A stretch of DNA of 6,511 bases from an uncultured bacterium (GTDB lineage Bacteria; Verrucomicrobiota; Kiritimatiellia; RFP12; UBA1067), in contig CACZAK010000284.1 of the NCBI GenBank assembly GCA_902779075.1, forward strand, positions 1-6,511. The letters are read 5' to 3'. The notes under the pieces are model-generated. The model made no database searches. It was given only the letters and a program-made list of their open reading frames with translations, and was not told the DNA's origin. This document shows, one piece after another, positions 1 to 6,511 of the stretch. Positions within the stretch are counted from its first letter, which is position 1, and every line of letters begins with the position of its first letter. Both the position numbers and the translations under genes were made by a program.

Positions 1-97
1 GGGAATCAGGCAACCCGCCGGATGCGTCTTTGCATTCGGTGTGGACAACCTCTCCCTGCTTTACAAGCCGTTCAATTTGTTTTGCCGTCAACTTCAT
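1..97 (-). CDS. AlbA_2/Schlafen-like ATP-binding regulator, N-terminal fragment (3' end outside window)
   Basis: Reading from an ATG at 97-95 gives 32 codons that run open off the left edge, starting MKLTAKQIERLVKQGE and ending in TECKDASGGLPDS. The pattern 'leucine-rich helix, QGE, then E-C/F-K, then GGLP-(K/D)-S' is how the AlbA_2 (Schlafen-like) domain begins in bacterial proteins annotated as ATP-binding or helix-turn-helix regulators; the family usually continues with a W-E-T-x-x-A-F-A-N segment that would lie off-window. These proteins are common accessory genes in gut anaerobes and are usually several hundred residues long, so most of it is missing here. The ribosome binding site is weak. 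A promoter repeat lies 108 bp upstream (206-234). The family call rests on one short segment and is moderate; the existence of a gene is more secure than its name. Confidence 0.55.
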   Translation of the reverse strand, partial: MKLTAKQIERLVKQGEVVHTECKDASGGLPDS

Positions 98-157
98 TAT
101 TATCTACCGCTTTTTCCTATACCTTCTCGAAGCAATGATCGCAACACATGCGACTCT

Positions 158-417
158 CCCGCGTGGGTAATCAGGTATCTCGCCTTTGAGAGACAAGACG
201 GAAATAGTATGCCACATTCCCCCGCCCAACGCAAGCGGGATTTTGGGATTTTGGGAAATTGAAGTTTTGCGCGCGGTTTGAAATGTGAATGCGCGGTACG
301 TCAAATATCGCAATAGGTGAAGTAACGGGTATAATGTGTAAGATTACGGTGCGGAACGTGTTTTTTGGGGGAATTGCGGCTCGCCCGGAGGGCTCGCCCC
401 ACCACGGCTCGGCGGGA
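158..417 (-). repeat. Long copy 1 of the island's promoter-bearing repeat
   Basis: About 260 bp align almost throughout with 3967-4214. In minus-strand order it holds a GC-rich GGCGAGCC-type part, a roughly 90-bp less GC-rich part, a CCCGC...GCGGG hairpin, a sigma70-like promoter, a short hairpin (178-198) and a CCCGCGTGGG near-palindrome. Compared with the other long copy it has a 10-bp internal duplication (TTTTGGGA repeated at 241-254). It fills almost the whole 322-bp gap between the AlbA-like gene and the GNAT gene. No protein-coding signal is seen inside it. Confidence 0.85.
206..234 (-). promoter_or_regulatory. Sigma70-like promoter in repeat copy 1
   Basis: On the minus strand: -35 TTGCGT (234-229), 17-bp spacer, -10 CATACT (211-206), preceded by TGTGG. 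The predicted start near 199 falls at the foot of the 178-198 hairpin. It points at the AlbA-like gene starting at 97. Both hexamers are imperfect; the confidence comes mainly from the same geometry recurring in the other copies. Confidence 0.5.
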
Positions 418-425
418 TGTCATGC
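374..425. repeat. 52-bp perfect repeat (partner at 1699-1750)
   Basis: These 52 bases are identical to 1699-1750. They contain the GGCTCGCCC/AGGGCTCGCCCCACC motifs and end in GATGTCATGC. Read on the minus strand, the end of this repeat supplies the last alanine codon and the TGA stop of the GNAT gene. Confidence 0.9.
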
Positions 426-1010
426 CGGCAAAACTGAGAACATCTGGTCGTAAACGATTCCGTCCTTAGCATTGCGCCGCGTTGTCCAGGACTTGAAACC
501 GTTAGATTCGTAGAAATCAAGCAGTTTGGGGCGGTCTATTTCCCTTTCAACCATAACGAGCTTACCGCCAATACTCTGCTTTACCATCGAAAGTTTCTCA
601 ATTGCCAGAGCCAAGAGGTCATTGCCCGATATCCGATGGTCTTCCGGAAGTGCGTAATTCTTGCCAATCTGTGCAATCAGATACACTGCCGCATTGAAAT
701 AACCGTTTGCGTCTACTTCCGCGAAACGTTCTATCAGCCGTCGATTCTTTGAATTGAGCGAAACACCCATTACGGAATAGGCTTTTGCCGTTAGGGTAAA
801 GTAACCAAGCAGTTCCTTTGTTTCATCATCCCATACAAGATAAGTCATGGATGAAGACAGTCGCGATGAGTGACGAGCCTTGTTCTTCAGGAAATCTTCG
901 ACTTCGCGATTTTTCGGACATGAGAAACTCTGGATGAAAATAGCTAACGCTTCTTCACCCATCATTTTCTCACCCTGTAATAGCGTATAAGCGCTGATAC
1001 CTTTCATCAT
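420..1010 (-). CDS. GNAT-family acetyltransferase, probable type II toxin
   Basis: 196 residues. The N-terminal part has the PKNREVEDFLKNKA region and the strand TYLVWDDETKELLGYFTL (56-73), typical of GNAT proteins of the 170-190-residue toxin-like class. Residues 107-140 (AAVYLIAQIGKNYALPEDHR, then SGNDLLALAIEKL) match the strand-4/helix-3 acetyl-CoA pyrophosphate-binding region, with QIGKNY as the loop. KLLDFYESNGFK (163-173) is the usual C-terminal GNAT motif. Family knowledge: TA-linked GNAT toxins acetylate charged tRNAs to stop translation. The target here is inferred, not shown. The ATG at 1010 overlaps the stop of the upstream small gene as ATGA, implying translational coupling; a second ATG at 1007 is also possible. 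The stop lies inside the 374-425 repeat. A plain non-toxin acetyltransferase is the alternative. Confidence 0.85.
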   Translation of the reverse strand: MMKGISAYTLLQGEKMMGEEALAIFIQSFSCPKNREVEDFLKNKARHSSRLSSSMTYLVWDDETKELLGYFTLTAKAYSVMGVSLNSKNRRLIERFAEVDANGYFNAAVYLIAQIGKNYALPEDHRISGNDLLALAIEKLSMVKQSIGGKLVMVEREIDRPKLLDFYESNGFKSWTTRRNAKDGIVYDQMFSVLPA

Positions 1011-1213
1011 GCGTTCGCCTTCATCTCCTGGGCCTTTTTAATGAGTGCTTTGAAGAATGCACGTTCACCAGCAGGTGTACGCACAACTTCGCGACAACTT
1101 CTCTTGGGCCTCAATCGAGACGGAGGTGTCTGCGTAAAAAGTGCATGGACTATCGCATTGGCGGCCTTGGGGTCGTCAGTGTAGAAGTTCGCAGTTATGC
1201 TTGATGTTGCCAT
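1007..1213 (-). CDS. Small putative antitoxin of the GNAT toxin (68 residues)
   Basis: The ATG at 1213 is chosen because GAGG sits five bases upstream; the open frame extends further but without a ribosome site and through the promoter repeat. The product begins MATSSITANFYTDDPKAANA and ends in a basic, helical tail FFKALIKKAQEMKANA. I see no clear ribbon-helix-helix or helix-turn-helix motif, so the DNA-binding class is unknown. The role is inferred from position: first gene of a two-gene operon, with a four-base overlap (ATGA) with a GNAT toxin, as in other GNAT-type TA pairs where the antitoxin comes first. The promoter repeat 1265-1293, with a perfect TATAAT, lies 51 bp upstream, and a small GGGC-ATA-GCCC hairpin (1236-1246) sits in the leader. 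Confidence 0.75.
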   Translation of the reverse strand: MATSSITANFYTDDPKAANAIVHALFTQTPPSRLRPKRSCREVVRTPAGERAFFKALIKKAQEMKANA

Positions 1214-1264
1214 GTTATCCTCGCTTTCCGTCCAAGGGCATAGCCCCAGTAAAAAGGTAACGTT

Positions 1265-1293
1265 ATTATACCACTTTCCCCGACCCAAAACAA
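1265..1293 (-). promoter_or_regulatory. Strong sigma70-like promoter in diverged repeat copy, upstream of GNAT TA pair
   Basis: Minus strand: -35 TTGTTT (1293-1288), 17-bp spacer ending AAAGTGG, -10 TATAAT (1270-1265), a perfect consensus. The distance to the antitoxin ATG is 51 bp. This is the best single promoter in the window. Confidence 0.75.
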
Positions 1294-1325
1294 GCATGAA
1301 TTTTGGAAGTTGAAGCCTCGCGCGC
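1265..1325 (-). repeat. Diverged copy of the promoter repeat
   Basis: Aligns with the core of the long copies: CCAC-TTCCCC-G-CCCA at 1271-1287 and ATTTTGGAAGTTGAAG at 1300-1315, followed by a CGCGCGC run. The CCCGC/GCGGG stem arms are lost here, as are the hairpin and palindrome beyond the promoter. The promoter spacing is kept. Confidence 0.7.
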
Positions 1326-1557
1326 ATCTGCGTAATTCACCGCCGAGCCTTCAGATGTTTGGAAAAAACTATTTGAAACAACTTGCCTTTGGCGCGCGGA
1401 CTAACTCGCCCGCGCCCATTAGCCGATCCTCTAACTACCACAATTCTGAATGTTCAAGGTGCGCCCGCAGGATAATGTTGTTCTTGAAAGTTGTCATGGT
1501 TGTTTCCAAATCCCAATACGTATGGGGGAAAGCGGCGGTGCGTGCGCGGCACAGCCA
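1326..1557. other. Gene-free stretch with one doubtful 20-codon ORF
   Basis: No convincing gene. On the minus strand an ATG at 1497 opens a 20-codon frame (MTTFKNNIILRAHLEHSELW, stop at 1435) with a weak GGA eight bases upstream. It could be a remnant or chance; I do not recognise it. There is also a GGCGCG...CGCGCC arm pair (1391-1416) and an imperfect palindrome around ATACGTAT (1512-1527). Confidence 0.3.
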
Positions 1558-1750
1558 ACGGCTCGCCCGGCTCGGCGGGAGGGCTCGCCCCACCCGTTGC
1601 GGCTCGCTGAGAGGGCTCGCCCCACCTTACGGCCGCGACGGAGCGCGGCCCTCCCAGTGGGGCCGCGACCGGCTCGGCGGGACGCCTCGCCCCACCCGTT
1701 GCGGCTCGCCCGGAGGGCTCGCCCCACCACGGCTCGGCGGGATGTCATGC
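1558..1750. repeat. Cluster of GC-rich interspersed motifs (GGCTCGCC / AGGGCTCGCCCCACC)
   Basis: The 15-mer AGGGCTCGCCCCACC occurs at 1580-1594, 1612-1626 and 1714-1728, with a variant ending CCTCGCCCCACC at 1685-1696. GGCTCGGCGGGA is interspersed. A perfect 7-bp hairpin, GGCCGCG-ACGGAG-CGCGGCC, lies at 1631-1650. Its last 52 bases are identical to 374-425, and the same motifs occur at 4173-4228 next to another promoter repeat. The long open frames across it on both strands are Arg/Pro/Gly-rich repeat translations, not genes. Confidence 0.85.
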
Positions 1751-1763
1751 GGTAATTCGATAT

Positions 1764-1787
1764 CCGCGAGAACACTGTCGTTCGCGG
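1764..1787 (-). terminator. Hairpin downstream of DUF2442 gene, possible terminator
   Basis: CCGC and GAAC arms pair with GTTC and GCGG around a six-base loop, with a two-base bulge. It lies 10 bp after the DUF2442 stop in the transcription direction. There is no clean U tract, so a terminator role is only possible. Confidence 0.3.
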
Positions 1788-1797
1788 CTATCATCAT

Positions 1798-2043
1798 CTA
1801 TGGCAAAATATTAGAACGTTCCCATACAGATTCTGGTGCGACATCAATATTGTCATCCCAGACGATTGTTCCATACTCAGCTCTCGCCGTATTGAAGAAA
1901 TCTACATCTTTCAGTCGCGCCCAATATGGATCTGCCGTCAGGTACTCGCAATTGAATATCCCTGTCTCGCCTGTGTCAAATCGGACTTTGACGCTGCAAT
2001 TGCCACACGGTACTGCTTCTGTCACGAAATGTAGTTGTTCCAT
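1798..2043 (-). CDS. DUF2442 protein, second gene of DUF4160-DUF2442 pair
   Basis: 81 residues from the ATG at 2043, chosen because AAAGGAG lies eight bases upstream; a longer frame starts inside the neighbouring gene. The order of features matches DUF2442: an early strand (VTEAVPCGNCSVKVRF), a G-E-T-G-I-F-N strand in place of the usual G-E-x-R-x-F-D, then Y-W-A-R-L-K-D-V-D-F-F (40-50) and Y-G-T-I-V-W-D-D-N-I-D-V-A-P-E-S-V-W (57-74). The last segment corresponds to the family's G-T-V-x-W-x-x-x-x-D-x-x-P-x-x-L/V-Y. Length is typical. It follows the DUF4160 gene by 14 bp, with that gene's TGA abutting the ribosome site. The pair is recurrent in bacteria and often suspected to be a TA or related two-component module; the biochemical role is unknown to me. 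Confidence 0.88.
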   Translation of the reverse strand: MEQLHFVTEAVPCGNCSVKVRFDTGETGIFNCEYLTADPYWARLKDVDFFNTARAEYGTIVWDDNIDVAPESVWERSNILP

Positions 2044-2057
2044 AATGCCAACTCCTT

Positions 2058-2339
2058 TCAGCGAGAAAGCGGTGCGATCTCTGGCGGAGTAATGCCACGA
2101 CGCAGCATTTCCCATGCAGCGGAAAGATCGTCATTATGGATTTCAATCCATGTTTTTATCCATCCCGCCTGTCTTCTTGGGAAACCGTTCTTGCCCTTTG
2201 CCAGCATTCTGCCAGTCTTCGCGTCAAACGATGCCGCATGCCCTTGATACCATGCATGAACATGAGCGCTCTTGTGGCGCTCGCAGTCCTCTTTTTCCAT
2301 TGAAAGTATTATTCCAAAGAATGATGATAGTTTAGCCAT
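2058..2339 (-). CDS. DUF4160 protein, first gene of DUF4160-DUF2442 pair
   Basis: 93 residues; the ATG at 2339 has AGGAG seven bases upstream. The start MAKLSSFFGIILSM matches the family's 'isx-F-x-G-I-x-I-x-M' opening. HKSAHVHAWY (22-31) is the characteristic H-x-x-x-H-x-H segment, normally written PPHFHxxY, and is followed by a strand with A-S-F-D. FPRRQAGWIKTWIEIHNDDLSAAW (53-76) matches the C-terminal helix (R-x-x-x-x-V-x-x-W-x-x-x-H-x-x-E-L-x-x-x-W). The histidine cluster could bind metal, but I know of no proven activity. The first 'PP' of the usual motif is replaced by KSA. The promoter repeat with -10 TATCAT lies only 32 bp upstream, giving a very short leader. The gene is co-directional with DUF2442 and probably co-translated with it. 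Confidence 0.88.
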   Translation of the reverse strand: MAKLSSFFGIILSMEKEDCERHKSAHVHAWYQGHAASFDAKTGRMLAKGKNGFPRRQAGWIKTWIEIHNDDLSAAWEMLRRGITPPEIAPLSR

Positions 2340-2371
2340 GGCTTGCTCCTGTCAAATTAAAAAGCACTTAC

Positions 2372-2400
2372 ATGATACCACATTCCGCACACCGCCGCAA
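2372..2400 (-). promoter_or_regulatory. Sigma70-like promoter in diverged repeat copy, upstream of DUF4160
   Basis: Minus strand: -35 TTGCGG (2400-2395), 17-bp spacer ending GGAATGTGG, -10 TATCAT (2377-2372), a 5/6 match. It lies 32 bp before the DUF4160 ATG. A TTGACA just before the start codon (2356-2351) is too close to the gene to act as its -35. Confidence 0.65.
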
Positions 2401-2443
2401 GCAAGGATTTTGGAAATTGAAGTTTTGAAGTTTTGCGCGCGGG
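2372..2443 (-). repeat. Diverged copy of the promoter repeat
   Basis: Shares the CCACATTCC segment, the CGCAA -35 complement and GGATTTTGGAAATTGAAG with the long copies. The last part, TTGAAGTTTTG, carries a duplicated TTGAAGTTT (2417-2433). It lacks the 5'-hairpin and palindrome. Upstream, 2444-2500 retains weak similarity to the long copies (CAACGGGTATGAGAT, GCGGCGCGG). Confidence 0.7.
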
Positions 2444-2549
2444 CGCTCGGAGGTTACAATTTGCCGCAACGGGTATGAGATGCGTCCGCGATATTGCGGC
2501 GCGGGGACCGATACACTTCGGTTCTGACTTTACGAACGGAAAAGGAACG

Positions 2550-2795
2550 TCATGCTGTAATCCCAAGTTGTTCCCTTAATCGTTTGCCAGACGCACGAGC
2601 CCGCTCTGCCACTTCATGCAGACTTTCGCCTACATACATGTTCTTTTCGCGCCACAAGGTATAATCCTCCGGCTCGCGAATCGTGAGCGTTATGAACCGC
2701 TCGGCATTGACATTCCCAAAGGTGTCGACAAGCACCTGGAATCCCGTCGTCATCAATTCTCTATCTGTCAGAATTCTTTCGGTTGTAGCGGTCAT
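2550..2795 (-). CDS. 81-residue antitoxin-like protein, unpaired
   Basis: The ATG at 2795 has AGGAG eight bases upstream. The sequence starts MTATTERILTDRELMTTGFQ, continues V-D-T-F-G-N-V-N-A-E-R-F-I-T-L-T-I-R-E-P-x-D-Y-T-x-W-R (24-49) and ends in a charged helix (ESLHEVAERARASGKRLREQ). I recall small proteins with this layout (helical N-terminus, G-x-V-x-A-x-R-F, D-Y-T-x-W) in many bacteria, often beside toxin-like genes, but cannot name a Pfam family securely. No recognisable partner gene follows: the 110 bp downstream lead into the next repeat. It is the only complete accessory cassette here with a single full gene. The leader is unusually long (183 bp from the -10) and contains a short ORF resembling a nucleotidyltransferase N-terminus. 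Confidence 0.75.
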   Translation of the reverse strand: MTATTERILTDRELMTTGFQVLVDTFGNVNAERFITLTIREPEDYTLWREKNMYVGESLHEVAERARASGKRLREQLGITA

Positions 2796-2817
2796 GGATT
2801 CATCTCCTGTATAAATG

Positions 2818-2883
2818 TCAATGGATTAGCCACTCGCATTTTCTCTCATCTCGCTTCGCATTTATCTCGTCCAACATACACAT
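2818..2883 (-). pseudogene. Tiny leader ORF, possible remnant of a nucleotidyltransferase start
   Basis: A 21-codon frame whose ATG at 2877 has GGAAG six bases upstream. From that ATG it reads MLDEINAKRDE, which resembles the first residues of small MNT-type nucleotidyltransferases (often M-L-x-E-I-x-A-K-R-D-E-I). It then leaves the family pattern and stops after eight more residues. It could be an eroded antitoxin gene, a leader peptide or chance. The stop lies 22 bp before the 81-residue gene. Confidence 0.3.
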
Positions 2884-2929
2884 CTTCCAATACCTTCCAC
2901 ACATATCGGCTACGGTTGCTCACCGTCTG

Positions 2930-3040
2930 ACCCGCGCGGGTAATCTGTTATCTCGCCTTCGAGAGGCAAGACGGAAATAGTATGCCACATTCCCCCACCC
3001 AACGCAAGTGGGATTTTGGAAATTGAAGTTTTGCGCACGG
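2930..3040 (-). repeat. Promoter repeat copy with 5'-hairpin and palindrome
   Basis: Matches the long copies from the palindrome ACCCGCGCGGGT (2930-2941) through the hairpin 2951-2971, the promoter and the stem CCCAC...GTGGG, to TTGAAGTTTTGCGC, then diverges into the GAGAC-rich stretch. The stem has a paired change relative to the other copies (CCCGC/GCGGG to CCCAC/GTGGG). Confidence 0.88.
2979..3007 (-). promoter_or_regulatory. Sigma70-like promoter in repeat copy upstream of the 81-residue gene
   Basis: Minus strand: -35 TTGCGT (3007-3002), 17-bp spacer, -10 CATACT (2984-2979). Same hexamers and spacing as copies at 206-234 and 4015-4043. Confidence 0.5.
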
Positions 3041-3054
3041 GAGCGCAGAGATTG

Positions 3055-3178
3055 ACGAGAGACGCGAGACGCGAGACGCGAGCGGAGACTAGCAGACGTG
3101 AGACTATGAGGCAATGCGGCTTTGCCAATGTCTCATCGTCTCATGTCTCGGCTCGTCTCCCGTCTATCGTCTCACGTC
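3055..3178. repeat. GAGAC/GTCTC-rich imperfect inverted repeat
   Basis: The left half has three tandem GAGACGC units and further GAGAC motifs; the right half has repeated GTCTC. GACGTGAGAC (3095-3104) pairs perfectly with GTCTCACGTC (3169-3178). Nested inside, GAGAC-t-ATGAG pairs with CTCAT-c-GTCTC, around an inner GCAA/TTGC hairpin. The structure would form in either strand. No gene is visible here. Confidence 0.75.
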
Positions 3179-3204
3179 CGCGCGCACACGCCCACCTCGC
3201 CGGC

Positions 3205-3241
3205 GGCGGGCGCGTACGCCATTCCGGAATCGCCTCCCGCC
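3205..3241 (-). terminator. GC-rich inverted repeat after vapC, possible terminator
   Basis: GGCGGG (3205-3210) pairs with CCCGCC (3236-3241) and encloses the perfect palindrome ATTCCGGAAT (3221-3230). It begins 27 bp after the vapC stop in transcription direction. There is no U tract, so the role is uncertain. Confidence 0.3.
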
Positions 3242-3267
3242 AAACCGCATTGCGTGGCCGGACAAAA

Positions 3268-3645
3268 CTACCAGATCGTCGGTACAGGGTATTGCGGGAT
3301 CATCCTATCCCGCGTGATAATTGTCATCTTGCCGATTTGCGCCTGAGCGATGATGAGACGATCAAAAGGGTCGCCGTGGATTTTCGGCAACGACTTGATC
3401 TGTTCAAGCACGACGGATTGAATCGGAAGTACCTGGATGTCTCGGTCAAGGCACAAAGATTCCAGTTCTGGAATTGTCATGCAAAACTGCATCTTGCCGA
3501 CGCTCTGCTTAATGGCGATTTCCCAGAAGGAGGCAATACTGACCGCAACGTATTCTGCCTTATCTATTAGGGAATGTGCCGATGCGGAAAGTTCAGACGA
3601 ATCACGCAGATACCAAAGCATTGCATGTGTGTCGAGCAAGTACAT
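3268..3645 (-). CDS. vapC: VapC-type PIN-domain toxin ribonuclease
   Basis: 125 residues from the ATG at 3645. All PIN signatures are present: LLDTHAMLW with acidic D5, SIASFWEIAIK with E42, DPFDRLIIAQA with D92 and D95, and ITRD with D113. These acidic residues bind the metal ion in PIN nucleases, so the active site looks intact. The C-terminus YPVPTIW matches the usual end of this VapC subgroup, so the protein is full length. Family members cut RNA, often tRNA or rRNA; the target here is not predictable. The ATG overlaps the antitoxin stop as TGATG and is preceded by AAGGAG eight bases away. A GTG one codon earlier (3648) is the alternative start. It forms an operon with the DUF2281-type gene. 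Confidence 0.95.
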   Translation of the reverse strand: MYLLDTHAMLWYLRDSSELSASAHSLIDKAEYVAVSIASFWEIAIKQSVGKMQFCMTIPELESLCLDRDIQVLPIQSVVLEQIKSLPKIHGDPFDRLIIAQAQIGKMTIITRDRMIPQYPVPTIW

Positions 3646-3884
3646 CACATGTACTCCTTAAAACATTCTAGCGGCTCATCAAAATCTGGTGCCATGTAGA
3701 ACTCGCCTGTAATTCCCCCAGCATGGCGTCGTGGAGCATCTGCAGCAACATGAGATGACACTGTGCCTCCCGAAATCGTTGACTGCTTTTGCCTAAAGAT
3801 CAGAAAATCCAAAAAAGCCAGCAACTCCTCGCGATACTGCGGGGATATTTCGTCCACTTTGTCTTTTACTGCTGCATAAGGCAT
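3645..3884 (-). CDS. DUF2281/VapB-like antitoxin
   Basis: 79 residues. The ATG at 3884 is chosen for AGGAG seven bases upstream; the frame stays open further back but lacks a ribosome site. The N-terminal half (VDEISPQYREELLAFLDFLI, 11-30) is the leucine-rich helix typical of DUF2281 antitoxins. The C-terminus GEFYMAPDFDEPLECFKEYM (60-79) closely follows the family's G-x-x-x-M-A-x-D-F-D-E-P-L-E-x-F-x-E-Y-M, the part expected to wrap the toxin. The middle (31-59) is a low-complexity linker. The gene overlaps vapC by one base (TGATG), with the last methionine codon only three bases ahead of the toxin start. The promoter repeat 4015-4043 lies 130 bp upstream; antitoxins of this type normally repress their own operon, but no operator can be assigned with certainty. 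Confidence 0.9.
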   Translation of the reverse strand: MPYAAVKDKVDEISPQYREELLAFLDFLIFRQKQSTISGGTVSSHVAADAPRRHAGGITGEFYMAPDFDEPLECFKEYM

Positions 3885-3966
3885 GGCAAGGCTCCTAAAC
3901 TTTTCATTAGCTTCAACCTGCGCGCTGTAGCGGCGAGCTCGGAAAGCACGTGACAACCGCAACCAC

Positions 3967-4214
3967 CCCGCACGGGTAATCTGTTATCTCGCCTTTGAAA
4001 GGCAAGACGGAAATAGTATGCCACATTCCCCCGCCCAACGCAAGCGGGATTTTGGAAATTTGAAGTTTTGCGCGCGGTTTGAGATGTGAATGCGCGGTAC
4101 GTCAGGTATTGCGATAGGTGAAGTAACGGGTACTTGGCATGAGATTACGGCGCGGAACGTGGTTTGGGGGATGCGGCTCGCCCGGAGGGCTCGCCCCACC
4201 ACGGCTCGGCGGGA
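3967..4214 (-). repeat. Long copy of the promoter repeat upstream of vapBC
   Basis: About 248 bp collinear with 158-417: CCCGCACGGG palindrome, hairpin 3987-4007, promoter, CCCGC/GCGGG stem (4032-4050), GAAGTTTTGCGCGCGGTTTG, the GTGAATGCGCGGTACGTCA segment, GTGAAGTAACGGGTA, GCGGAACGTG, then GGCTCGCCC motifs. It ends where copy 1 reads GATGTCATGC and this one reads GACGCCTCGC. Confidence 0.88.
4015..4043 (-). promoter_or_regulatory. Sigma70-like promoter in repeat copy upstream of vapBC
   Basis: Minus strand: -35 TTGCGT (4043-4038), 17-bp spacer, -10 CATACT (4020-4015), preceded by TGTGG. The predicted start falls at the foot of the 3987-4007 hairpin, and the leader to the antitoxin ATG is about 120 bases. 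Confidence 0.5.
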
Positions 4215-4270
4215 CGCCTCGCCCCACCGAGCGGTCGCGAAAGCGCGGACTCTCCCGCTGTTGGCGGGGC
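4173..4270. repeat. GC-rich interspersed motifs, second cluster
   Basis: Contains AGGGCTCGCCCCACC at 4186-4200, then GGCTCGGCGGGACGCCTCGC, which also occurs at 1671-1690. The end (GGTCGCGA...GCGCGGACTCTCCC...GGCGGGG, 4231-4268) is a degraded version of the GGCCGCGACGG...GCGCGGCCCTCCC hairpin region at 1631-1664. No gene is seen. Confidence 0.75.
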
Positions 4271-4278
4271 CACCATGA

Positions 4279-4388
4279 CAGGGGGGATTTTTGAGCTACG
4301 CAGGGGGGATTTTTGAGCTGCGCAGGGGGGATTTATGAGCTACGCAGGGGGGATTTTTGAGCTACGCAGGGGGGATTTTTGAGCTGCG
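4279..4388. repeat. Five-unit 22-bp tandem repeat
   Basis: Five exact-length units (4279-4300, 4301-4322, 4323-4344, 4345-4366, 4367-4388), each CA-G6-ATTTTT-GAGCT-RCG. They differ only at an A/G near the end of the unit and one T-to-A change in unit 3. There are no spacers between units, so it is not a CRISPR array. The unit length is not a multiple of three and is about two helical turns. Confidence 0.95.
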
Positions 4389-4398
4389 TTGGGAGAGC

Positions 4399-4439
4399 GA
4401 CCTCCCTACGATTAGGGAAAGACCTGCCTACGATTAGGG
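4399..4439. repeat. 19-bp direct repeat, two copies
   Basis: GACCTCCCTACGATTAGGG (4399-4417) and GACCTGCCTACGATTAGGG (4421-4439) differ by one base and are three bases apart. Function unknown. Confidence 0.85.
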
Positions 4440-4494
4440 CTTGATGTCACTACAGCGAGGGCATGACCTCGCCTTTGGGAGGCAATACGGAAAT

Positions 4495-4522
4495 AGCATA
4501 CCAATTCCCCCGCCCAACGCAA
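4495..4522 (-). promoter_or_regulatory. Weak sigma70-like promoter in the gene-less repeat copy
   Basis: Minus strand: -35 TTGCGT (4522-4517), 16-bp spacer, -10 TATGCT (4500-4495). No start codon with a ribosome site follows before the tandem array. Confidence 0.35.
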
Positions 4523-4532
4523 GCGGGGAATT
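4503..4532 (-). terminator. Extended hairpin 47 bp after the PFOR stop
   Basis: In this copy the repeat's stem is lengthened to about ten pairs, AATT-CCCCGC against GCGGGG-AATT, with one bulged C and a nine-base loop. It is the most stable-looking hairpin downstream of nifJ and could end its transcript or protect its 3' end, although no U tract follows. Confidence 0.35.
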
Positions 4533-4578
4533 CAGAAAGTTGAAGGTCAAGAAGGCCGTAACCGCTTTTGGGCGTCCG

Positions 4579-6511
4579 TCACCAGTTACATGTGGTGAGG
4601 TCCTCAAGACGGTCGTAGTAGTTGCGGTAGAATCTCTCGGCCTTCGAGAGCATCTCCACGGCGTGTTCGGGATTGCGCTTGAGGAGAAGCTTGAAGCGGT
4701 TTTCCTCGGACGCCGTGGCCGCAAACGACTTCGACGGCGGCTTGGAGTCGAGCTCGAGCGCGGAGAAGCCCTTGGCGCTGCGCGAGGGATCGTAGCGGAA
4801 GAGCGGGAAGTGGCCCGTCTCCACAGCAGTCTTCTGCCGGGCGAAGCCCTGCGCCATGTCGATGCCGTGCGCCACGCAGTGCGAGTAGGCGATCACGAGC
4901 GCGGGGCCGTCGTAGGCGTCCGCCTCCGCAAGCGCCTTCGCGGCGGCCTGCGGGTTTGCGCCGAGCGAAATCTGCGCCACGTACACGTCGCGGTACGTGA
5001 GGATGATGCCGCCGAGGTTCTTCTTCATCGTGGGACGTCCCCCGGCGGCGAACTTCGCCACCGCGCCCATGGGCGTTGCCTTTGAGGCCTGTCCGCCGGT
5101 GTTGGAGTACACTTCGCTGTCGAGGACGAGCGCCTTGATGTTGCGTCCGCTCGCAAGCGCGTGGTCGAGTCCGCCGAACCCGATGTCGTACGCCCAGCCG
5201 TCGCCGCCAATGAGCCACACGCTCTTGCGAATGAGCCAGTCGGCGTTGGCGAGCATGGAGACAGCGCGCGCGTCGGTGCGCCCGGCGAGCGACTTCTTGA
5301 GCTGCTCCACTGCGGCGCGCATGTCCTCCACGCCGCGCGGCGTGGCCTGGTCGATACCGCTCACGCGGGCCGCGGCCTCGCGCACGGCGGCGGGCTCGTC
5401 GCGGTCGAGCATGAGCTTCGCCGCCTCGGCGCGCGCGCGTGCCTCAAGGTTGTCGCAGGTGACGCGCATGCCGAGTCCGTATTCGGCGTTGTCCTCGAAG
5501 AGCGAGTTGCCCCACGCGACGCCGCGTCCGTCCGCGCGCGTGCAGTACGGCGCGGTGGGCAGGTTGCCGGCGTACACGCTCGAGCAGCCCGTCGCGTTCG
5601 CCACCACAAGGCGCTCGCCGCAGATCTGCGTGAGCAGGCGGATGTACGGCGCCTCGCCGCAACCCGCGCACGCGCCGCAGAACTCGAAGAGCGGCTTCTT
5701 GAGCTGGACGTCGTTGTAGTTCGACATGTCGAGCTTCGTGGCATCCGCCTCGGGAATCGTGAGGAAGAACTTCCACATCGCGAGGTCGCGGTCGCGGTTC
5801 TTCTCCTCGTGCGGCTGCATCTCGAGCGCGCCACGGGCGGCCGCCGGACAGTTCGCCACACAGAGGCCGCATCCCGTGCAGTCCTCCGTGGAACACTGCA
5901 CCGTGAACTTGCCGCCGTGGCGACGGTAGGCGGGCGACTTCGCGTCCGCGCTGCGAAAGCCGGCCGGCGCGCCCTCGAGCGCCTCCTCGTGGAACGCCTT
6001 GAGACGCAGCGCGGCGTGCGGACACGCCCCAGCACAGCGTCCGCACTGCACGCACGCGGCGGGATTCCACACGGGCACGTCCGCCGCCACGCCGCGCTTC
6101 TCCCACTGCGTGGTCGCTACGGGCCACACGCCGTCCACGGGAATCTTCGAGACGGGCAGCTCGTCGCCCTTCTGCGCAATCATCTTCGCCGTCACCTCGC
6201 GCACGAACTCCGGCGCGGCGGGATCGACAACGGGCGGACGCGGCGGCAGGTCTGTCACGGTCTCCGGCACGGACACCTTGTGGATGCCGGCCGCCGCCGC
6301 CTCGATGCAGGCGATGTTCTTGCGCACCACGGCGTCACCCTTCGAGGCATACGTCTCCTCGGCTGCAGCCTTGAGGTAACTGACCGCCTCGTCCGCCGGC
6401 AGGATGCCGGAAATGCGGAAGAACGCGGCCTGCATGACGGTGTTGATGCGCGTGCCCATGCCGTTCTCGCGGGCGATCTTCGCCGCGTCGATCACGTAGA
6501 AGTTGATCTTC
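4579..6511 (-). CDS. nifJ: Pyruvate:ferredoxin (flavodoxin) oxidoreductase, C-terminal half (5' end outside window)
   Basis: The last 643 codons of a gene whose family is about 1170-1200 residues; the frame stays open to the right edge, so the GTG at 6495 is not the start. Counting from the first full codon (6510-6508): KINFYVIDA and RINTVMQAAFF (end of the gamma domain, 1-50); the EKR motif (137-139); two ferredoxin-type 4Fe-4S motifs, C153/156/159/163 and C211/214/217/221; CGAC (278/281), C309 in ATGCSS and C545 in YSHCVAHG, which match the ligands of the third cluster; and the thiamine diphosphate site GDGWAYDIG (436-444) with NTGGQ (470-474). The enzyme, cytoplasmic in anaerobes, turns pyruvate and CoA into acetyl-CoA, CO2 and reduced ferredoxin. 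All ligands are intact and the C-terminus is complete. It is more GC-rich than the accessory genes downstream and probably marks the chromosomal edge of the island. Confidence 0.98.
   Translation of the reverse strand, partial: KINFYVIDAAKIARENGMGTRINTVMQAAFFRISGILPADEAVSYLKAAAEETYASKGDAVVRKNIACIEAAAAGIHKVSVPETVTDLPPRPPVVDPAAPEFVREVTAKMIAQKGDELPVSKIPVDGVWPVATTQWEKRGVAADVPVWNPAACVQCGRCAGACPHAALRLKAFHEEALEGAPAGFRSADAKSPAYRRHGGKFTVQCSTEDCTGCGLCVANCPAAARGALEMQPHEEKNRDRDLAMWKFFLTIPEADATKLDMSNYNDVQLKKPLFEFCGACAGCGEAPYIRLLTQICGERLVVANATGCSSVYAGNLPTAPYCTRADGRGVAWGNSLFEDNAEYGLGMRVTCDNLEARARAEAAKLMLDRDEPAAVREAAARVSGIDQATPRGVEDMRAAVEQLKKSLAGRTDARAVSMLANADWLIRKSVWLIGGDGWAYDIGFGGLDHALASGRNIKALVLDSEVYSNTGGQASKATPMGAVAKFAAGGRPTMKKNLGGIILTYRDVYVAQISLGANPQAAAKALAEADAYDGPALVIAYSHCVAHGIDMAQGFARQKTAVETGHFPLFRYDPSRSAKGFSALELDSKPPSKSFAATASEENRFKLLLKRNPEHAVEMLSKAERFYRNYYDRLEDLTTCNW

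Follow-up and report, generated by a model that had tools for sequence, protein, structure and literature searches.

A repeat carrying a predicted promoter precedes exchangeable toxin-antitoxin and defense cassettes in uncultured Kiritimatiellia genomes

Repeat copies and genes in the window

The window analyzed here is the whole of a 6,511-nucleotide stretch of DNA from an uncultured bacterium of the Kiritimatiellia (contig CACZAK010000284.1), and it carries six minus-strand copies of a repeat of about 100 bp, each containing a predicted promoter. An earlier note, made from the letters of this DNA, had reported six such copies; all were recovered at the same positions and with the same promoter boxes, in a number far above chance. 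The −35 TTG was present in 6/6 copies, the spacer was 17 bp in copies 1 to 5 and 16 bp in copy 6, and the −10 boxes were CATACT (three copies), TATAAT, TATCAT, and TATGCT. Over an ungapped 101 bp, copies 1, 4, and 5 were at least 88% alike, and copies 2, 3, and 6 were more diverged. The note had also singled out copies 2 and 3 as the most diverged, and both indeed lacked the CTTGCC...GGCGAG hairpin, carried the −10 boxes TATAAT and TATCAT, and aligned across just 66 to 72 columns of the repeat model (45 and 47 bits). The copies and the blocks upstream of them are as follows.

159..303 (−): repeat copy 1; promoter 206-234 (TTGCGT, 17 bp, CATACT); profile match 141 bits
1260..1325 (−): repeat copy 2, diverged; promoter 1265-1293 (−10 TATAAT); 45 bits
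2365..2444 (−): repeat copy 3, diverged; promoter 2372-2400 (−10 TATCAT); 47 bits
2932..3043 (−): repeat copy 4, long-spacer form; promoter 2979-3007 (−10 CATACT); 117 bits
3044..3219 (−): hairpin-bearing long spacer preceding copy 4; inverted repeat 3092-3107/3166-3181
3968..4104 (−): repeat copy 5, short-spacer form; promoter 4015-4043 (−10 CATACT); 152 bits
4092..4170 (−): block of palindrome type preceding copy 5; 245-369 and 4046-4170 pair as repeats at 86%
4466..4547 (−): repeat copy 6; promoter 4495-4522 (16-bp spacer, TATGCT); 65 bits

Copy 1 also has an upstream counterpart of the palindrome block, at about 291-369, and the sequence from 3219 down, on the spacer side of copy 4, is common to many loci. 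No gene was recognized behind copy 6, which faces a 22-bp tandem repeat (4279-4393). Counterparts of this gene-less copy occur in two other loci, L064 and L074, and in a third, L070, about 93 bp are absent at this place, where two 10-bp stretches that resemble each other flank the gap. A GC-rich repeat family lies between the cassettes of the window (374-425, 1564-1750, and 4171-4247).

The remaining five copies each precede a different set of genes, as had been claimed, with several of the identities weak or below cut-off. Open reading frame is abbreviated ORF.

1..97 (−): N-terminal part of an AlbA-like protein, copy-1 cassette, truncated where the window ends; L060 and L134 match it at about 90% DNA identity
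420..1010 (−): GNAT-like protein, copy-2 cassette; weak matches to PDB acetyltransferases
1007..1213 (−): small partner ORF of the GNAT-like protein, behind copy 2; assigned by position; no family match
1798..2043 (−): DUF2442 protein; Pfam E 1.1e-6 using the longer ORF
2058..2339 (−): DUF4160 (DhiT-like) protein, behind copy 3; Pfam E 3.2e-14
2550..2795 (−): 81-amino-acid protein, behind copy 4; no family found (Pfam, NCBIfam)
3268..3648 (−): PIN-domain (VapC-like) protein, copy-5 cassette
3645..3884 (−): VapB-like antitoxin, behind copy 5; NCBIfam 55.5 bits against a cut-off of 60, using the longer ORF
4579..6511 (−): pyruvate:ferredoxin oxidoreductase, the host gene flanking the array; TIGR02176 E 6e-232; partial protein

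The L060 homologue of the AlbA-like protein matched SLFN_AlbA_2 (E 1.7e-11). Four acetyltransferase matches in PDB (best E 5.4e-4) were obtained for the GNAT-like protein, and neither it nor its small partner had a match in Pfam or NCBIfam. The DUF4160 protein scored 41.5 bits against the NCBIfam model for toxin DhiT, under the cut-off of 100. Alignments to L070 and L100 were split around the copy-4 cassette, which lacks about 454 bp containing a second ORF that those loci have, and the 81-amino-acid gene may be an orphan partner. An ORF of at most 183 amino acids precedes the 81-amino-acid gene in L066, L070, L071, and L100, and no identity was found for it. The window PIN protein itself had no NCBIfam match, its homologue in L071 matched PF01850 (E 9.8e-16), and the homologue of the VapB-like protein in L137 matched DUF2281. 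With a VapB-like antitoxin adjoining a PIN-domain toxin, the copy-5 cassette is a predicted type II toxin-antitoxin (TA) system of the vapBC kind.

Conservation, anatomy, and distribution of the repeat

To extend the comparison beyond the window, an iterated profile search was run on 75 sequences (the window and 74 fetched regions), and it gave 142 matches, 141 of them aligned and 128 at 40 bits or more; two overlapping pairs, in L060 and L061, which are partial tandem duplicates, are counted among the matches. Letters kept at 99% or more included the −35 TTG, the G at −14, and the A and last T of the −10 box, and some letters outside the promoter, such as the C before TTG and the T at −17, were equally conserved. 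The spacer was 17 bp in 110 of the 128 copies, and 8 copies were without a TTG at a fitting distance. Among the 36 copies under 80% identity, the promoter letters remained at 97-100%, compared with averages of 0.68 and 0.75 for the other columns of the same copies (two bins, of 17 and 19 copies). The pattern of conservation strongly supports a predicted promoter carried by the repeat, and a consensus scan (below) does not.

The core of the repeat begins 62 bp ahead of the point where the −10 box ends and extends 30-70 bp beyond that box, and the left edge of common homology clusters at −62. Upstream of the core there is often a palindrome block, which by eye is perfect for 32 bp in L100, and between block and core lies either a short spacer or a long one that carries a hairpin. 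A model in which a unit had been inserted precisely between the palindrome and hairpin blocks was dropped, and the two forms are treated as one module with either a short or a long spacer. An RNA element within the core was likewise rejected, as no pairs were predicted and no consensus fold was obtained.

A 23-base degenerate pattern recovered 26 stretches in metagenome-assembled genomes (MAGs) titled uncultured bacterium (RUG series), Kiritimatiellae bacterium, and uncultured Lentisphaerae bacterium, and the closest matching genomes include rumen and gut MAGs named Kiritimatiellae. DNA searches of the eight genomes behind those stretches gave 42, 1, 20, 3, 4, 18, 12, and 4 repeat matches, and a match was present in 14/96 genomes sampled from the family of genome G001. 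Wherever a locus held several copies, all pointed in the same direction, with the exception of one 20-bit match in L128, and neighboring copies were mostly 0.45-1.2 kb apart. A plasmid or phage origin was rejected (no match at E 1e-5), and viral contigs contained no match to an exact 30-base pattern, a search that diverged copies would escape. Arrays L059 and L068, from two genomes, match at 100% identity along 3,763 and 1,460 bp, with stretches at 90-95% next to these, which we read as either recent transfer or mis-binning.

Cassettes and leader RNAs behind the repeat

To relate the repeat to TA genes genome-wide, 150 of 227 matches were used from five genomes (28.1 Mb) with a distance limit of 1 kb. 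A same-strand copy lay within that distance upstream of 14 of the 108 PIN matches and 5 of the 22 DUF4160 matches, compared with about 0.3 and about 0.06 expected under uniform placement. Neither family occurred within 1 kb downstream of an opposite-strand copy in these genomes, and the controls, Y1_Tnp (0/21) and response regulators (0/48, of 87 found), were absent from behind copies. Diverged copies (22-47 bits) precede PIN genes too. The earlier note had named scatter regardless of accessory genes or orientation as the outcome that would speak against it, and that outcome was not seen.

Downstream content was then assigned for the 128 copies by Pfam scans of 50 proteins, extended by clustering, with the window GNAT and AlbA genes labeled by hand and some labels (ParE-like, AbiEi_4, one PIN, and one DUF6364) below the Pfam cut-off. 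A TA or defense label alone was given to 43 copies, such a label together with a leader RNA called X to 2, X alone to 15, and a second candidate leader, Y, alone to 16; 9 copies lay less than 250 bp from a contig end. The families behind copies were PIN, DUF2281, SLFN_AlbA_2, AbiEi/AbiEii, NTP-transferase/HepT, DUF3990/DUF3791, DUF4160/DUF2442, DUF433/DUF5615, DUF6364, ParE-like, FRG, and HEPN.

The same cassettes recur across species and contexts: the vapBC cassette is present in the window, L071, L125, L137, and L144, and the AlbA cassette in the window, L060, L120, L129, L134, and L145. Loci L133 and L141, from two genomes, have 1,094 bp in common at 99.3% between unrelated flanks, and the block ends inside the core and 2 nucleotides beyond a stop codon. 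Three pairs of loci agree in the promoter and one flank and differ in the gene that follows. L133 and L137 agree in the right host region (97.4% over 4.1 kb) and in the promoter module (96%), with DUF3791/DUF3990 in one and vapBC in the other; L063 and L121 agree over 2.1 kb on the left (92.9%), with DUF6364 and LRR_5; and L076 and L143 agree over 2.06 kb on the left (93.8%), with DUF4160 and ParE-like. The breakpoints at exchange sites fall within the repeat or just behind the −10 box, as expected if repeats recombine, and a site-specific enzyme could be the exchange agent instead. We conclude that cassettes are mosaic behind the repeat.

Candidate leader RNAs, which the earlier note had not included in its claim, are headed by 33 of the 128 copies and tend to close the arrays. 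In loci with at least two copies, those heading X or Y were last in 16/19 cases, compared with 3/34 for those heading TA genes. Leader X is about 175 nucleotides long (for example L110:1108-1288 [+], with 12 other loci; model R2), and at 11 of the 13 loci where the motif matched in full its start lies 78-84 nucleotides after the −10 box. Among 12 sequences, 65 cells with both-sided changes were counted, compared with 20.8 ± 3.6 after shuffling and no more than 11 after sliding, and 18 pairs had such changes, compared with 12.3 ± 1.9 (reached in 3/500 shuffles). We regard the covariation as strong for a predicted structure. No Rfam match up to E = 1 was found for X (L110 960-1400), and at the gathering score Rfam 15 had nothing in the window, L057, L105, L110, L062, or L146. 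Leader Y (L122:6974-7282 [+] and L057:1498-1802 [+], with 11 other loci) is a weaker candidate than X, with both-sided changes in 13/59 pairs, a covariation term near zero, and one sub-threshold Rfam match on the opposite strand.

The X model finds 46/96 genomes of the family, including 11 of the 14 with the repeat. At 40 further X loci (L170-L209), 37 of them from genomes without a repeat match, a TTG-16/18-TAnnnT site lies upstream in 31 (shuffled mean 2.2, maximum 8) and a AGATTTCCCGCG-like motif in 33 (shuffled mean 0.7); by eye, the motif is also on several window copies. X-type units may be the source of the repeat, which would then derive from their promoter and the beginning of their leader, as a similar promoter precedes X even in genomes where no repeat was matched. 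The genes behind X (50 ORFs scanned) include FGE-sulfatase (7), LRR_5 (5), FRG (5), and others. An inverted repeat scoring at least 6 spans the −35 TTG at 11 of the 31 X-locus promoters, with differing sequence, a configuration found in 5.9% of shuffles.

Interpretation and comparison with known systems

We propose that these loci are probably promoter-anchored cassette arrays, in which each TA or defense cassette would obtain its own sigma-70-type promoter and leader start from the repeat. Recombination within repeats would add, remove, and swap cassettes, so that the promoter stays and the gene behind it changes. The module would probably derive from the promoter and first leader part of an older unit that consisted of a promoter, a structured leader RNA, and a surface-type gene, an arrangement that still closes many arrays. 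Several observations weigh against this proposal. Neither a recombination event nor a transcript was observed. Detection of copies by homology itself favors conserved columns, and, as draft MAGs were used throughout, array structure may be obscured by contig ends and mis-binning. When positions 1-4600 were scanned with a plain sigma-70 consensus, 0/6 window promoters and 7 other sites (4.1 ± 1.9 expected) were listed; the six were missed because the −35 box fits only 3/6 bases, and the promoter call therefore rests on conservation rather than consensus score. Moreover, 43 of the 128 copies have neither a TA nor a leader call. Of the 108 PIN matches, 94 are without a copy within 1 kb upstream, and the repeat is therefore not a general TA promoter. 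The notion of a modular promoter was largely supported for a same-orientation repeat before unrelated TA and defense cassettes that exchange behind it, and did not extend to the leader-headed and uncalled copies or to the copyless majority of PIN genes.

Many copies per genome (from 42 to 1 in eight genomes), palindromes upstream of the core, and Y1_Tnp proteins in 5/5 genomes tested would also fit a nonautonomous transposable repeat of the miniature inverted-repeat transposable element, repetitive extragenic palindrome, or bacterial interspersed mosaic element type, with an incidental promoter and with TA genes gathering in insertion-tolerant islands. We consider this unlikely, as copies within a locus nearly all share one direction (the 20-bit match in L128 excepted), the promoter letters are conserved, cassettes are swapped behind a fixed copy, and Y1_Tnp lay within 1 kb downstream of a copy in 0/21 cases. 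An ordinary regulon, in which every TA or surface gene has its own promoter copy by vertical inheritance and no cassettes are exchanged, would account for the diverged copies before PIN genes and for the similar promoter that X widely has. Homology extends well past the promoter letters, however, and promoter and cassette histories conflict at three sites, and we judge a regulon to be rather improbable.

Integron cassette arrays carry TA content, as do the arrays here, and the repeats could in principle be attC sites of a chromosomal integron or of a cluster of attC sites lacking integron-integrases (CALIN), given head-to-tail cassettes of about 1 kb and a GTTGGGC in the core. An attC site has the boxes RYYYAAC and GTTRRRY, plus a fold. 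The GTT letters of the repeat are only 68-72% conserved, however, no partner box was seen by eye, and the core has no consensus fold. TIGR02249 was over its cut-off in 0/8 genomes, a result to be read with the same count of 0 in 14 control genomes, with sensitivity to divergent integrases unproven, and with the fact that a CALIN needs none. As no integrase passed the cut-off and neither conserved boxes nor a fold were seen, we rejected the attC reading as very improbable.

If promoter-anchored arrays are the correct account, bacteria would gather and express defense genes without an integrase, with a shared promoter as both landing site and expression signal, and the turnover of TA islands would become testable across arrays of related rumen genomes. 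The arrays also point to a leader RNA with strong covariation, present in 46/96 family genomes and without an Rfam 15 match in the searches made. More tentatively, it is possible that an integrase-independent system has made the promoter and leader start of a surface operon, with its Rfam-absent structured RNA, into a docking site at which TA and defense cassettes are collected and exchanged, such that every new cassette would come under a functional, co-regulated promoter.

In searches of the open-access full-text literature, with subscription journals and preprints outside the scope, nothing was recognized as these arrays or the leader RNA. Mobile promoters and REPIN-type repeats are likewise short sequences repeated many times between genes, and some of them act as promoters. 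Unlike those, the repeats here form same-direction arrays, are tied to exchangeable TA cassettes, and have promoter letters as their best-kept positions. The intergenic repeats of halovirus HF2 resemble ours in carrying promoters before many genes of one genome (PMC8707807), but HF2 is a virus of archaea, and its repeats are not known to head exchangeable bacterial TA cassettes. Integrons and CALINs (for the definition of the latter, see PMC7923331) are like these arrays in having small head-to-tail cassettes and promoters inside the array; promoter-bearing gene-less cassettes are reported in sedentary chromosomal integrons of Vibrio (PMC11014356). The arrays described here differ from both in having no integrase over cut-off and no attC boxes seen, and in that the repeat is itself the predicted promoter and precedes the gene.

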